From positions 1 through 36,007 of IMG/VR virus record IMGVR_UViG_3300009163_000008: 36,007 nucleotides of DNA. One strand, given 5' to 3'. Positions within the stretch are counted from its first letter, which is position 1; each line of letters begins with the position of its first letter. The notes under the pieces were generated by a model, which was not told the DNA's origin, ran no database searches, and saw only the letters and a program-made list of their open reading frames with translations. Below, piece by piece: positions 3,359 to 31,765 of this stretch. This stretch comes from a virus. The position numbers were made by a program, and so were the translations under genes.

Positions 3359-3581
3359 GGCTCAGAAAGGTAAGTGTTGAGGCCGGCGTTGGCAAGCGTC
3401 CAGACTCGTCGTAGATGCCTGAGTACGGCGTGATTTCGTTAGGCCCGAGGCCGTTGCCGTCTTGGCCCGCTGGCGGTAGGACGCGGTTTGGTTTTACAAG
3501 CACCACCAGCCCGGCGGGCGGCACCTCGTTGAGGTAGCGCTGCTGCATTCTTGGAATTTGTGGGACGGGCAAGACGGTCAT
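3351..3581 (-). CDS. Hypothetical lysis-cluster protein, overlaps the upstream gene
   Basis: 76 residues, rich in Pro and Gly, without cysteine or a membrane segment (MTVLPVPQIPRMQQRYLNEVPP at the start). The first 143 bases overlap the upstream membrane gene in another frame. The amino acid composition looks like a folded or extended virion or envelope protein, and the frame fills the space down to the next gene exactly, which supports it. An out-of-phase gene nested in a membrane protein gene recalls Rz/Rz1 spanins, but the lipoprotein cysteine expected of an o-spanin is missing. Function unknown. Confidence 0.5.
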   Translation of the reverse strand: MTVLPVPQIPRMQQRYLNEVPPAGLVVLVKPNRVLPPAGQDGNGLGPNEITPYSGIYDESGRLPTPASTLTFLSHA

Positions 3582-3720: not shown

Positions 3721-4202
3721 TTTTTATCCCCAGGCTGGATGTGCGACGCGCCAAAATAAAACGAGACGATCATAGCCCACGCACTAGCCAGCGAGCCAAC
3801 CAGCATTTGGAGTTCCGCGTGCCCCTCCCACATCTTTAGGTCGCCAGTCATTAGGCCAACAAGGATGCCAAAAAAGCCCACGGTGACGGCACTCGCAAGG
3901 ATTGGCACCGTGTGCGAGCCGGTCTTTACCTGCATTTCCCGCGCCGACGCCCGATCTGCTGCGGCCAATTTTTCGGCATCAATCCCCAACTCCGCCATCC
4001 GCGTTTTAAGTTGCAAATCCGCAGCCTGAAGCGCTGCCATTTGCTCCGCGGTAAGGTTGCCGGAACTAAGCGCTTTTTGCACTTTGTCAGCGGTTGCGTC
4101 AGACATCCCAAGAGCCTTGCCCACGGCCTCGACTGCTAGGCCGCCCATGGGGCCGCCAAGGACTGTTGCAAGCGTTGGCAGGATGGATGAAAGCCAGGTC
4201 AT
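3717..4202 (-). CDS. Holin, 3TM gene-transfer-agent type
   Basis: 161 residues. The layout fits the family described as holin of 3TMs for gene transfer release: an N-terminal Gly/Ala-rich amphipathic segment (LATVLGGPMGGLAVEAVGKALG), a long charged helix in the middle (QLKTRMAELGIDAEKLAAADRASAREM), then two clear membrane segments near residues 102-120 and 133-152 (GSLASAWAMIVSFYFGAS). It would make the membrane lesion that releases the endolysin encoded downstream. The ATG at 4202 is preferred: it follows the fibre gene's TAA by one base, and upstream in-frame ATGs would lie inside that gene. Confidence 0.75.
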   Translation of the reverse strand: MTWLSSILPTLATVLGGPMGGLAVEAVGKALGMSDATADKVQKALSSGNLTAEQMAALQAADLQLKTRMAELGIDAEKLAAADRASAREMQVKTGSHTVPILASAVTVGFFGILVGLMTGDLKMWEGHAELQMLVGSLASAWAMIVSFYFGASHIQPGDKK

Positions 4203-24566: not shown

Positions 24567-25098
24567 GCAACTTGGCCTTCACCCTGTCCAATAAAAGGTC
24601 AATGCGGCACTGCAACTTAGGACGCAATTCCTCCTCAGACTGCCCCGCAATTTGTCCCGTCAAATCGTTTACCAGCGCTTGGCACTCTGCCGACAAGATG
24701 GCGCCAATCTGCACCCCCGCCTCCCGCACCTCAGCGCGGTTGATAAGTTCGCCGCGGGCCTGGGCGTTCTGAATCTCCAGTCGCTCGACTTCCAGCATTG
24801 TCTTGCGGAGTTTTGCGTCAGATAACCCCACTGGTGTCTCTTTAATTTTTGCTGCTCGCCATGCGTCCATCTCCTCAACCGTGCCTTTAAGCGGAGCCCC
24901 GACCTTGCCCCACTTAATAATTGTAACGTGTGAGACGCCGTAATGCGCGGCCCATTCCCGCGTTGTTTTAACAGGCGCTTGGCCACGTTCGTAAGCTTCA
25001 ACTTGCGCTTGTTCTCGGCGTGAAATAGTTTTGCCAGATTTTAGTTTGGCAAAAATGTTTGTGATTTGCGCGCGCGTTGCCTGTTCTGCTAAATTCAT
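24553..25098 (-). CDS. Terminase small subunit (Nu1-like)
   Basis: 181 residues. It has an HTH-like part near residues 50-70 (TTREWAAHYGVSHVTIIKWGK), then a basic linker and a long helical C-terminus (LRKTMLEVERLEIQNAQARGELI), the layout of Nu1-type terminase small subunits that recognise the packaging site and bind the large subunit. It is coupled by ATGA to the ParB/methylase gene upstream and overlaps the large subunit gene downstream. A cos site would be expected nearby, but I could not identify one. Confidence 0.8.
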   Translation of the reverse strand: MNLAEQATRAQITNIFAKLKSGKTISRREQAQVEAYERGQAPVKTTREWAAHYGVSHVTIIKWGKVGAPLKGTVEEMDAWRAAKIKETPVGLSDAKLRKTMLEVERLEIQNAQARGELINRAEVREAGVQIGAILSAECQALVNDLTGQIAGQSEEELRPKLQCRIDLLLDRVKAKLHEST

Positions 25099-26333
25099 TT
25101 TTGCTTAATTTTTAATTCGTCAAATGTTTTGCCAGATTTGTGTAATGCTTTTTTTCCAGTAAATGCCTGCCAGCGATTTAAAATTATATCAACGTTTACT
25201 GGGTTTAATTCCAACGCGAATGCTGTAGTACCAATTATTTCGCACGCCATTACAGTTGTGCCCGAACCTGCAAATAAGTCCAAAAACACACTTTTTCCAA
25301 CCCCTCTAAATATTGCTTCAATCCATTTCATTGGTTTTGAATGGCAATGCCCTCCGTTTTCTGAAGTTGTTGGAAATGCTTCTACCGTGCGTAAATGAAC
25401 TGCTCCATTTAATGGAATATAGTCGCAATCACCTCTTGTGTTTGAAACTGTTTTTGCCTCCCGTTTTTTTCCGTCTTTAATTATCGCTGCTTCGAAATTC
25501 CATTTGGGATCGTCTCCAAAAATCCCGCACGCTTTGTGCCTGGCCAATGGTCTGTTAGGGGTAAACCAAGACGTCACATTATCCCAAATCAATTCGTATA
25601 ATGGCGCCCAACCGAATTCCATTGCGCATTTTGCAGCGCAAGCAAATCTTTTGAAGTCCCAAAAAATTATAAGTTTAGCTCCTTCATTTTGAGGAAGCAT
25701 CGCCGTTGAATAAAGGGACTCTTGCTCATAAGGCGGATCAAATATTAGGCAATCCCATTTTGCGCCATCCAACAAAATCTCAATATTGTCAATGCTTGTG
25801 CTGTCTCCGCACATAATCCGGTGATCGCCCAGCGTCCAGATGTCCCCGAGCACCGTCACCGGATCTTCAGGCGCTTCCGGCACCTCATCAGGGTCGGTCT
25901 TTCCCTCAATTATTTCCACTGACATTAGCGCTTTAAGTTCATCAGCGTTGAACCCAATAAGCCCCAAATCAATCTCTTCTCGCAGTGACTCAAGTTCTAA
26001 TTTTAACATCTCCTCGTCCCATCCCGCATTTAGCGCCAGTTTATTGTCGGCAATGACATACGCACGCCGCTGCGTCTCCGTTAAATGCGCCAGCCGAATG
26101 CAGGGTACTTCAGTCAGATCGAGTTTCCGAGCTGCTAACACTCGACCATGTCCTGCAATGATGCCTGACTCCGCGTCAACCAGCACTGGGTTGGTAAACC
26201 CAAACTCTTGAATGCTTCCTGCAATCTGAGCCACCTGGGCATCGGAGTGTTTGCGCGCGTTAGCGTAATACGGGATCAATGTTTCAATCCCGATCATTTC
26301 GATTTGGTAACGTGGATTTTTCAGATTACTCAT
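25095..26333 (-). CDS. ParB/Srx-domain and N6/N4 DNA methyltransferase fusion
   Basis: 412 residues with two domains. Residues 1-110 are a ParB/Srx-like domain with SGIIAGHGRVLAARKL, close to the conserved GERR/GHGR region of ParB-like nucleases and partition proteins. The rest is a DNA methyltransferase in beta-class order: DPPY at about residue 199 (LIFDPPYEQES) before FAGSGTT at about 354 (LDLFAGSGTTVMACE). It would methylate adenine-N6 or cytosine-N4 in the phage genome, probably against host restriction or to mark DNA for packaging. The ATGA coupling to the small terminase is notable. Such fusions are known in phages. Target sequence unknown. Confidence 0.85.
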   Translation of the reverse strand: MSNLKNPRYQIEMIGIETLIPYYANARKHSDAQVAQIAGSIQEFGFTNPVLVDAESGIIAGHGRVLAARKLDLTEVPCIRLAHLTETQRRAYVIADNKLALNAGWDEEMLKLELESLREEIDLGLIGFNADELKALMSVEIIEGKTDPDEVPEAPEDPVTVLGDIWTLGDHRIMCGDSTSIDNIEILLDGAKWDCLIFDPPYEQESLYSTAMLPQNEGAKLIIFWDFKRFACAAKCAMEFGWAPLYELIWDNVTSWFTPNRPLARHKACGIFGDDPKWNFEAAIIKDGKKREAKTVSNTRGDCDYIPLNGAVHLRTVEAFPTTSENGGHCHSKPMKWIEAIFRGVGKSVFLDLFAGSGTTVMACEIIGTTAFALELNPVNVDIILNRWQAFTGKKALHKSGKTFDELKIKQK

Positions 26334-29879: not shown

Positions 29880-30142
29880 CCCTGCACCTCCTCCCATTTG
29901 CCCAACGTGCGCAGAAACGCCTCTGCGCGTTGGCGGGCTGTTGCCCCCAAATAAGCACGATATTCACCCCTTGAAGCACGCCTATCAATAAAAGCTGAGT
30001 AAGCATAAAATTGATCTATTGTTAACACCTTCTCCGCCTCATGCATCGAATTGAGGTCGGCGCAGTAGTCCTTCTGAATCATCCAGTGCTCGTCAGCGTT
30101 AATTGCTTTTGCAATTGCTGCGTTGATTTGTTCGTCGGTCAT
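29876..30142 (-). CDS. Hypothetical protein, MTDEQINAAIAKA family
   Basis: 88 residues. It starts MTDEQINAAIAKAINADEHW. The first ten codons are repeated, with changes, at 31590-31534 (MTDDQINAAIDR), where the copy stops after 18 codons. The rest has acidic-hydrophobic patches (EKVLTIDQFYAYSAF) and a helical end (ATARQRAEAFLRTLGKW). No known family is recognised, though the Asn/Ala start is common in small phage proteins. ATGA coupled to the upstream gene and GTGA coupled to the nuclease gene. Confidence 0.75.
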   Translation of the reverse strand: MTDEQINAAIAKAINADEHWMIQKDYCADLNSMHEAEKVLTIDQFYAYSAFIDRRASRGEYRAYLGATARQRAEAFLRTLGKWEEVQG

Positions 30143-30426
30143 TTTGCCTCCTTTGCTGCTGCGATGAGTGCGTCTGCCTGTTCAACTGCCCAGATTGCCT
30201 CTTCTACAGTTTCCCATTGCTCTGTCTCCCTACTCAGATTTGCCGCCATCAACCGCGCCGCAATCTCCAGCCGCGAGGGCTCTGGGCGGGTTGTGACGCG
30301 CCGGAGTCTGACTAGGTCCCGCTCCAACTCCTCCAGCCTGTCGGCGGCGGCGCGGTGTATTTCTTCGGTGAGTGGTCCCAGCGGCATAATGCTTCTGAGG
30401 CGTTGAATTAATGCTTCTGTGTTCAT
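30139..30426 (-). CDS. Small phage protein with TTRPEPSRLEIAA motif (copy A)
   Basis: 95 residues. It holds the segment TTRPEPSRLEIAARLMAAN near residue 43, which occurs also in the gene at 31571-31765 with the same order and similar end (EQADALIAAAKEAK against EAADALIAQQ). Helical throughout. I choose ATG 30426 because it overlaps the methyltransferase stop as ATGA; the alternative at 30441 lacks this. The function is unknown. The pairing with the MTDEQ gene is repeated in truncated form on the other side of the methyltransferase gene. Confidence 0.75.
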   Translation of the reverse strand: MNTEALIQRLRSIMPLGPLTEEIHRAAADRLEELERDLVRLRRVTTRPEPSRLEIAARLMAANLSRETEQWETVEEAIWAVEQADALIAAAKEAK

Positions 30427-31541
30427 TTCAATTGGTTCCATAATGTTCTAAATGCTTTTTCTACTGTTGCCGGTACTACTCCGTTGCCGAGGAGTCGCAG
30501 TTCGTCGGTGCGATTGTCGCAGGTGACGCACAACTTGGCATAGTCCATCCAATCGGGAGACCCATCAGTGTCTCGACCCAGCGAGGGTTGAGTTTGCCCG
30601 TCCCCGCTTGCTGCGGTAATTGAATCTGTTTCAGGCCGTGCGGCTGCGGATTGCTTCCCTCCTTCCAATCTCTGGCTTGCGGCGTTGCCCATTGTACTTG
30701 ATTGCATAAACCCTGCTGCTTGCTGTTTGGGCCATGCCCCTTGTGCTCGCAAGATCTCGGCGTTGCCCACGCTTTCGCTTGGCTCGTTAGGCTCGGATGA
30801 CAATGCTCGCCCCTGTCCGCATTCCGTGTCACAAAGTTGCTGTCCGCTGCTGGCTCGTTTGCTCTGGGCGTTAGCCACGACTCTGGGCGGCTCCCATGCG
30901 TGCTGGGGTTGTCCGGGGCGGGAGGGCCAGACATCTCCCCACGCCTCGCCATTGCCGATAGGCACTTGCTCTGCTGTGAGTCTCCCCCAATGCGATAACT
31001 GTCCTCGTTGGCTGTTACTGTGGGCCAGGATGAACACCCGCTTGCGCTGGTGAGGCGCACCGCATTCAACCGCGCTGAATATTCCCCCCGTCGCTGCGTA
31101 ACCAAGGCCTTCCAAGTCTGCAATGACTTCTCGGAGTCCGAGGCTAATGTGTCCTTCGACATTTTCAAAGAAGCAGACTCGGGGGCGCATAAGCCTAATT
31201 CCATCTGCGATGTAGGGCCAAAGGTGTCTGGGGTCGTTCGCTCCGAGGCGCTTGCCTGCTGCGCTGAAGGGCTGGCAGGGGTAGCCTCCAGTGAGGATGT
31301 CCACTTTTCCAGAAAACTTTGCCCAAGGGAAGGTTTTAAGATCCGTCCAGATAGGTGCCGAGTCCATGAGTCCCGCTTCCATTTTTGCGACCAAGTTCGC
31401 GCAGGCGAATGCTTCGATCTCACAAAGAGCGACTGTGCGCAAAGCTGGGAGGACTCGTTTGAGTCCAAGCTCAATGCCGCCATATCCGGCACAAAGGCCG
31501 AGGTGTGTAGTTGTTTTGGTAGTATCCACATTTTCAAGCAT
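30423..31541 (-). CDS. C5 cytosine-specific DNA methyltransferase
   Basis: 372 residues, Dcm family. Motif I is GLCAGYGGIELGL (residues 15-27), motif IV GGYPCQPFSAAGKR with catalytic C89, motif VI FFENVEG with E126-N127-V128, motif VIII HQRKRVF at residues 164-170, and motifs IX-X near the end (RLLGNGVVPATVEKAF). The variable recognition part (about 180-330) is rich in Asn-Ala-Ser-type repeats (VANAQSKR, VGNAEILR, MGNAASQR). It would methylate cytosine, protecting phage DNA. The gene lies between two copies of a small-gene cassette and shares nearly all its length with another frame. Start ATG 31541 overlaps the end of the 18-codon remnant. Confidence 0.9.
   Translation of the reverse strand: MLENVDTTKTTTHLGLCAGYGGIELGLKRVLPALRTVALCEIEAFACANLVAKMEAGLMDSAPIWTDLKTFPWAKFSGKVDILTGGYPCQPFSAAGKRLGANDPRHLWPYIADGIRLMRPRVCFFENVEGHISLGLREVIADLEGLGYAATGGIFSAVECGAPHQRKRVFILAHSNSQRGQLSHWGRLTAEQVPIGNGEAWGDVWPSRPGQPQHAWEPPRVVANAQSKRASSGQQLCDTECGQGRALSSEPNEPSESVGNAEILRAQGAWPKQQAAGFMQSSTMGNAASQRLEGGKQSAAARPETDSITAASGDGQTQPSLGRDTDGSPDWMDYAKLCVTCDNRTDELRLLGNGVVPATVEKAFRTLWNQLK
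30476..31537 (-). CDS. Long out-of-phase frame inside the cytosine methyltransferase gene
   Basis: 353 codons on the same strand, nested in the methyltransferase gene and offset by one base. The sequence is not random: it has three W-x-TP segments (SWLTPRANE, AWATPRSCE, QWATPQARDWKEG), a cysteine/serine-rich part with GCSSWPTVTA, and an end with LNPRWVETLMGLPIGWT. The last is, from memory, a conserved tail of a phage protein family found next to or within Dcm-type genes. The WATP frame reads the same bases as the VGNA segments of the methyltransferase. It may be a true overlapping gene or a conserved shadow. Coding in this frame is not proven. Confidence 0.5.
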   Translation of the reverse strand: MKMWILPKQLHTSAFVPDMAALSLDSNESSQLCAQSLFVRSKHSPARTWSQKWKRDSWTRHLSGRILKPSLGQSFLEKWTSSLEATPASPSAQQASASERTTPDTFGPTSQMELGLCAPESASLKMSKDTLASDSEKSLQTWKALVTQRRGEYSARLNAVRLTSASGCSSWPTVTANEDSYRIGGDSQQSKCLSAMARRGEMSGPPAPDNPSTHGSRPESWLTPRANEPAADSNFVTRNADRGEHCHPSLTSQAKAWATPRSCEHKGHGPNSKQQGLCNQVQWATPQARDWKEGSNPQPHGLKQIQLPQQAGTGKLNPRWVETLMGLPIGWTMPSCASPATIAPTNCDSSATE

Positions 31542-31590
31542 TTAGAAACATGATTCGGTCAATCGCTGCGTTAATTTGGTCGTCGGTCAT
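31534..31590 (-). pseudogene. Truncated copy of the MTDEQINAAIAKA gene start
   Basis: 18 codons starting MTDDQINAAIDRIMFLNA and ending in TGA. The first twelve match the start of the 29876-30142 gene almost exactly, and the nearby bases, including the GCCTCCTTTGCTGC-type string upstream, match too. It ends within the methyltransferase start. It looks like the remains of a duplicated gene cut by insertion or replacement of the methyltransferase gene. Confidence 0.65.
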
Positions 31591-31765
31591 TGCGCCTCCT
31601 TTGCTGCGCGATAAGTGCGTCTGCTGCCTCAAGTGCACTTCTGGAGAGCCGCAGCGTATCGAAACTGCTGGCTGCTAGCATCCCTTGCATTGCCATCGCA
31701 GCAATCTCCAGCCGCGAGGGTTCTGGGCGGGTTGTAGTGCGACGCAGCAGCGTTTCAGTTGTCAT
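31571..31765 (-). CDS. Small phage protein with TTRPEPSRLEIAA motif (copy B)
   Basis: 64 residues. Shorter relative of the 30139-30426 gene: RRTTTRPEPSRLEIAAMAMQG near residue 8 and a similar end (LEAADALIAQQ). The start at 31765 is supported by GGAGG seven bases upstream on the coding strand; a longer in-frame version to 31819 would run into the upstream gene. Function unknown. Together with the 18-codon remnant it repeats the order of copy A and its downstream gene. Confidence 0.7.
   Translation of the reverse strand: MTTETLLRRTTTRPEPSRLEIAAMAMQGMLAASSFDTLRLSRSALEAADALIAQQRRRNDRRPN

Follow-up and report, generated by a model that had tools for sequence, protein, structure and literature searches.

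The known enzyme closest to the locus described here is M.EcoHK31I, which has the target YGGCCR. Its smaller polypeptide, of 176 aa, is encoded in another frame within the gene for the larger one. Motifs I-VIII and X are carried by the larger polypeptide along with a predicted recognition domain, and the smaller has only motif IX (PMC3404938). In M.AquI one subunit has motifs I-VIII and the other has IX and X; both enzymes demonstrate that such splits give working methyltransferases (PMC3404938). The multispecific phage C5 methyltransferases of SPR, phi3T and H2 are single polypeptides in one frame, and the region from motif VIII to motif IX holds several recognition units that can be exchanged (literature cited in PMC8936443). 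Ambiguous start sites have been described separately. In E. coli, translation of both frames can begin at AUGUG sites, and a 2022 study names Thermus rnpA-rpmH as the single bacterial precedent (PMC9841429).

Here we describe a phage locus from IMG/VR record IMGVR_UViG_3300009163_000008, of which a stretch of 36,007 nucleotides was analysed (the window). The Dcm frame (alpha) extends in its longest form over 30423-31541 on the minus strand, and a second frame (beta), offset by +1, over 30476-31537 on the same strand. The preliminary description of this DNA had reported two long same-strand frames overlapping by about 1,060 bases, the second free of stops for 353 codons, and both observations held. 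It had also credited the first frame with all Dcm motifs, which proved incorrect: motifs I-VIII and X are present, and motif IX is missing and is found in the second frame. We consider it highly probable that the locus encodes a C5-cytosine DNA methyltransferase divided into two subunits, the genes of which lie over each other on the same DNA, with translation of both, assembly and activity being inferred. Comparison of homologous sequences, on which this reading rests, indicates that both frames are under selection, that their motif content is complementary, that motif X is mobile between them and that their twin start is conserved.

Table 1. Features of the alpha/beta locus, in positions of the window.
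Feature	Position	Strand	Description or basis
alpha gene	30423..31529	(-)	368 aa from GTG; large domain with motifs I-VIII, then a long linker and motif X
beta gene	30476..31531	(-)	351 aa from ATG, in the +1 frame; array of W-x-TP modules, then motif IX
twin start ATGTG	31527..31531	(-)	beta ATG, alpha GTG 2 nt further on
alpha motif IV PCQPFS (catalytic cysteine)	31263..31280	(-)	sequence; invariant residues in alignment A4
alpha motif VIII region APHQRKRVFI	31029..31058	(-)	sequence; alignments A2 and A4
beta W-x-TP module array	30599..31027	(-)	segments WPTV, WLTP, WATP, WATP
beta motif IX LNPRWVETLMGLPIGW	30545..30592	(-)	homologue comparison; codon-position diversity
alpha motif X LLGNGVVP	30471..30494	(-)	sequence; in beta frame in 10 relatives
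18-codon leader ORF MTDDQINAAIDRIMFLNA	31534..31590	(-)	sequence; TGA end 2 nt before beta ATG
Shine-Dalgarno AAGGAGG of leader ORF	31595..31601	(-)	sequence

Alpha has the appearance of a catalytic half. It matches PF00145 (E 1.4e-31) and TIGR00675 (E 9e-24, below the cut-off of that model), and both matches end at motif VIII. The C5-cytosine DNA methyltransferase motifs I, IV (PCQ), VI, VIII and X are present, and the residues of motif IV (P84 C85 Q86 P87 F88 S89) are invariant in alignment A4. Motif IX was found in alpha in none of 248 unique alpha/beta pairs. The AlphaFold2 model is confident at residues 1-172 and 345-368 and of low confidence at about 180-342, a region that we read, from the model, as disordered. 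The DNA of the module array, read in the alpha frame, is this same stretch of predicted disorder. A Foldseek comparison of the model with known structures returned M.HhaI, a C5-methyltransferase large domain (E 2.5e-12). At two loci (L095 and L107) a long additional segment of alpha separates the motif IX region from motif X, and beta terminates early in a variant form of motif IX (LNPRWVCVLMNLPVFW).

Beta matches phrog_1008 (E 3.2e-19), as do all 39 aligned beta members. No match was found to beta among Pfam and NCBIfam profiles, a beta profile gave no meaningful match to PDB sequences, and beta modelled alone is of low confidence (mean pLDDT 55). Motif IX lies in beta in 72 of 74 unique homologues, and the remaining two have variant forms. 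When loci were fetched by motif IX alone (n=160), motifs IV and IX could both be located in 151, and motif IX was at +1 relative to motif IV in every one of these. The second protein is thus related to methyltransferase function, as it carries the motif IX that alpha lacks. By inference, it also carries the target-recognition modules of the enzyme.

These modules are formed by the W-x-TP stretch, which splits into 388 modules in 100 genes, in 90 arrangements. The same module families occur at differing positions between genes (the largest family was chained by single linkage). Tandem exchangeable modules between motifs VIII and IX are one criterion of multispecific phage C5 methyltransferases, and such modules are present here. 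By analogy with those enzymes the W-x-TP modules are probably recognition modules; their target specificity is only inferred. Unlike in SPR, phi3T and H2, the modules lie in a different frame from the catalytic domain.

Dcm homologues were gathered from viral contigs with the Dcm-frame protein as the sole query, giving 80 parsed genes including that of the window. One locus (L059) was not parsed and was left out; at its position 3571 a single stop interrupts the alpha frame near motif VIII with beta intact, and a real stop cannot be distinguished from a sequencing error. The +1 frame is open across nearly the whole gene in all 80 parsed genes, and the +2 frame of the same genes is open for at most 149 codons. 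The window gene was also shuffled 20,000 times among synonymous codons, with the Dcm protein and its codon usage preserved. Beta stayed open in one shuffle, and the string LNPRWVETLMGLPIGW was retained in none. The 353-codon opening had been called improbable by chance at average base composition, and these shuffles indicate that chance does not explain it.

The two frames leave distinct traces in the substitutions of 47 independent gene pairs. Around motif IX, substitutions that are silent in alpha and change beta are depleted (24, 0.29x expected), and those that change alpha and are silent in beta are in excess (217, 2.92x expected). Over the modules the values are 1.13x and 1.44x, respectively. 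Dividing third- by first-position differences in the alpha frame gives ratios of 1.23 for the N-terminus, 2.46 for motifs IV-VIII, 0.80 for the modules, 0.15 around motif IX and 2.90 for motif X, compared with 2.44 in 76 flanking control ORFs, some of which are perhaps shadow frames themselves. In the DNA of motif IX the codon-position diversity of the alpha frame is reversed (0.40/0.08/0.035). From these ratios, the dominant frame is alpha across motifs IV-VIII and X and beta across motif IX and the modules, and neither frame is free to vary in the N-terminal part. The constraint on beta over motifs IV-VIII is weak.

For the modules, the result depends on how they are paired. Regions paired by DNA differ at alpha positions 1, 2 and 3 by 0.303, 0.122 and 0.124, with an identity of 0.56 in alpha versus 0.81 in beta. 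Module pairs picked by alpha-protein similarity give the opposite sign (0.44 in alpha versus 0.33 in beta); given this low identity, we read them as alignments of unrelated modules, which is unproven. When module families are instead defined by beta similarity, identity is higher in beta than in alpha in all 27. These families are biased toward beta by construction, so the claim is carried by the DNA-defined pairs.

The preliminary description had proposed a long dual coding in which the recognition region of the enzyme and a second protein constrain each other, and had named three outcomes that would refute it: disruption of the second frame by stops in relatives, neutrality of substitutions in that frame, and a lack of its homologues outside Dcm overlaps. 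None applies. The beta frame is unbroken in the 80 parsed genes, and both the substitution classes and the module codon pattern depart from neutrality. Homologues of beta outside nested overlaps exist in actinophages. There, the same pieces are found as adjacent genes (Inventum gp68/gp69), as genes with short overlaps (Backyardigan, Firecracker) and, in one phage, as a single fused ORF (Aggie gp53). The proposal is therefore supported. As far as can be judged without evidence of expression, the second frame is a genuine gene and not a shadow; its translation is inferred.

The start of beta is most likely the ATG at 31531 rather than the TTG at 31537, and that of alpha is most likely the GTG at 31529, which overlaps the beta ATG as ATGTG. 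The ATG at 31541 is a possible alternative start of alpha in the window. Each of the 94 unique start regions from the clade of the window gene has a twin start. Alpha begins 2 nt after the beta ATG in 68 regions, 5 nt after it in 22 and 8 nt after it in 4, with GTG at +2 (ATGTG) and ATG at +5 and +8. In 52 of the 94 regions no ATG, GTG or TTG other than this start occurs from the upstream stop to motif I. The twin start is frequent in the nearer relatives of the window gene and missing from many distant ones. No Shine-Dalgarno sequence was seen upstream of 51 of the 68 ATGTG starts. In the window the leader ORF has a strong one, and we infer that this ORF serves reinitiation at the twin start.

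The sequence pattern of an ambiguous start, with start codons 2-4 nt apart in two conserved frames, is present as ATGTG in 68 of the 94 regions; the other 26 have the two ATGs 5 or 8 nt apart. Thermus rnpA-rpmH and E. coli pqiA, tamA and narQ likewise have start codons 2-4 nt apart in two frames (PMC9841429). In contrast to those cases, both products here are long and conserved, and are proposed to be parts of one enzyme.

Motif X is not fixed to one frame. Among the 248 unique pairs, alpha alone has it in 224 and beta alone in 10; no pair has it in both frames, and in 14 it was not found. One of these 14 is truncated by a contig end and the other 13 show X in neither frame; some are perhaps degraded or outside the pattern used. 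In two relatives of the window gene (L084 and L091) beta extends into NRTDELRLLGNGVVP. At the same two loci (about 1400-1522 and 3890-4016, respectively) alpha ends in a cysteine-rich tail, CQPCECCDDVICWKCGGHYADCPCLG, that resembles a zinc-binding segment. A tree built from the catalytic domain of alpha, with a bootstrap that is not fully settled, requires 9 changes for the state with X in beta; well-supported branches force at least 5 of these. Motif X thus appears, from this tree, to have shifted from alpha to beta in at least five lineages. Because the content of motifs IX and X is complementary, the frames look like two complementary subunits of one enzyme.

The layout resembles that of M.EcoHK31I, with motifs I-VIII and X in alpha and motif IX in beta, although this is a likeness of motif layout and not a demonstrated homology. 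In both, the beta-type polypeptide is encoded in another frame that overlaps the alpha gene. Unlike in M.EcoHK31I, the overlap here is almost complete, the starts are fused as ATGTG, and beta contains a long module array. The ten loci with IX and X both in beta (L084, L091, L117 and seven others) are like M.AquI; the window gene, whose motif X stays in alpha, does not have the M.AquI-type arrangement. In Paenibacillus phage Shelly (gp55/gp56), the +1 frame of the Dcm gene holds gp56, which is annotated as 'g55 internal gene' and terminates with LNPEWVECLMGFPIGWTD. Unlike in the window, the Shelly beta is shorter, starts within alpha and is without the twin start. The closest cellular matches are from Verrucomicrobiota. 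In Streptomyces phage phiBT1, gene 9.1 is annotated 'DNA methylase may be inactive'; after it comes a +1 frame that lacks annotation and contains sequence resembling motifs IX and X. No description of overlapping phage cytosine methyltransferase genes was found in the literature covered, and none of genes that overlap almost completely, share a conserved twin start, have repeatedly relocated motif X or contain a shuffled module array. Coverage of the literature was incomplete, so this lack is not proof of novelty.

Direct repeats at 30112-30306 and 31560-31747 of the window flank the alpha/beta gene with a spacing of about 1,445 (48 nt at 90%, 51 nt at 86% and 29 nt at 79%). Similar small genes (TRPEPSRLEIAA) lie on either side of it. 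From these repeats and small genes, it looks as if the alpha/beta gene arrived with a duplication. Another methyltransferase gene of the phage lies at 25095-26333 on the minus strand; it matches phrog_498 (E 2.7e-98), a DNA methyltransferase that has a ParB-like domain.

A second frame might be open only through the amino acids of alpha and the base composition. The VANA-type repeat of alpha can indeed read W-x-TP in the +1 frame, stops are few in GC-rich DNA, and a few single genes have shuffle P values of only 0.02-0.04. Such a shadow ORF does not account for the substitution pattern, the module codon pattern, the conservation of the start site or the relocation of motif X; we rejected it on the substitutions, the start and motif X, and regard it as extremely unlikely. 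Beta could also be a genuine but separate protein with a function of its own, for example a regulator. Its N-terminal half has no known domain and PDB sequences gave no meaningful match to beta, which leaves room for this. However, beta has the motif IX that alpha is missing, motif X has moved into it in some relatives, and fused and adjacent-gene forms exist, so that a protein other than a subunit of the alpha enzyme is very unlikely.

Programmed +1 frameshifting from alpha into beta, which would yield a fusion instead of a separately started subunit, is unlikely, though it has some appeal. Where alpha stops after motif VIII and beta has IX and X (as in L117), a single shift by +1 would be enough to make the enzyme complete, comparable to the single ORF of phage Aggie. 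Against this, the beta ATG is conserved, alpha ATG starts have a beta ATG 5 or 8 nt upstream, and in the usual layout a single shift would lose motif X.

Under the preferred reading of two separately started subunits, alpha would fold as the catalytic large domain (I-VIII), followed by about 160 residues that are predicted to be disordered and then by the motif X helix. Beta would supply motif IX, preceded by the module array, which probably reads DNA sequence. The ATGTG twin start would let ribosomes begin either frame, in the window probably after termination of the leader ORF. The subunits would then assemble into one active enzyme that modifies the DNA of the phage (or its host). Whether the locus is in addition a multispecific methylase, with exchangeable DNA-reading modules in one frame, a disordered linker in the frame of the catalytic subunit and subunit output set by ATGTG, we judge to be evenly balanced. 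Within that multispecific reading, free exchange of modules would be possible, since the linker that overlies them would accept almost any sequence without stops.

Long overlaps in which both frames are demonstrably selected are rare. As the two products look like halves of one enzyme, the role of each frame is separately testable. If the proposed reading is true, the locus would be a case in which the ATGTG ambiguous start is used in nature and has been conserved. The locus also suggests that an unannotated partner subunit may exist for other phage cytosine methylases whose annotation calls them complete or inactive, such as phiBT1 9.1.
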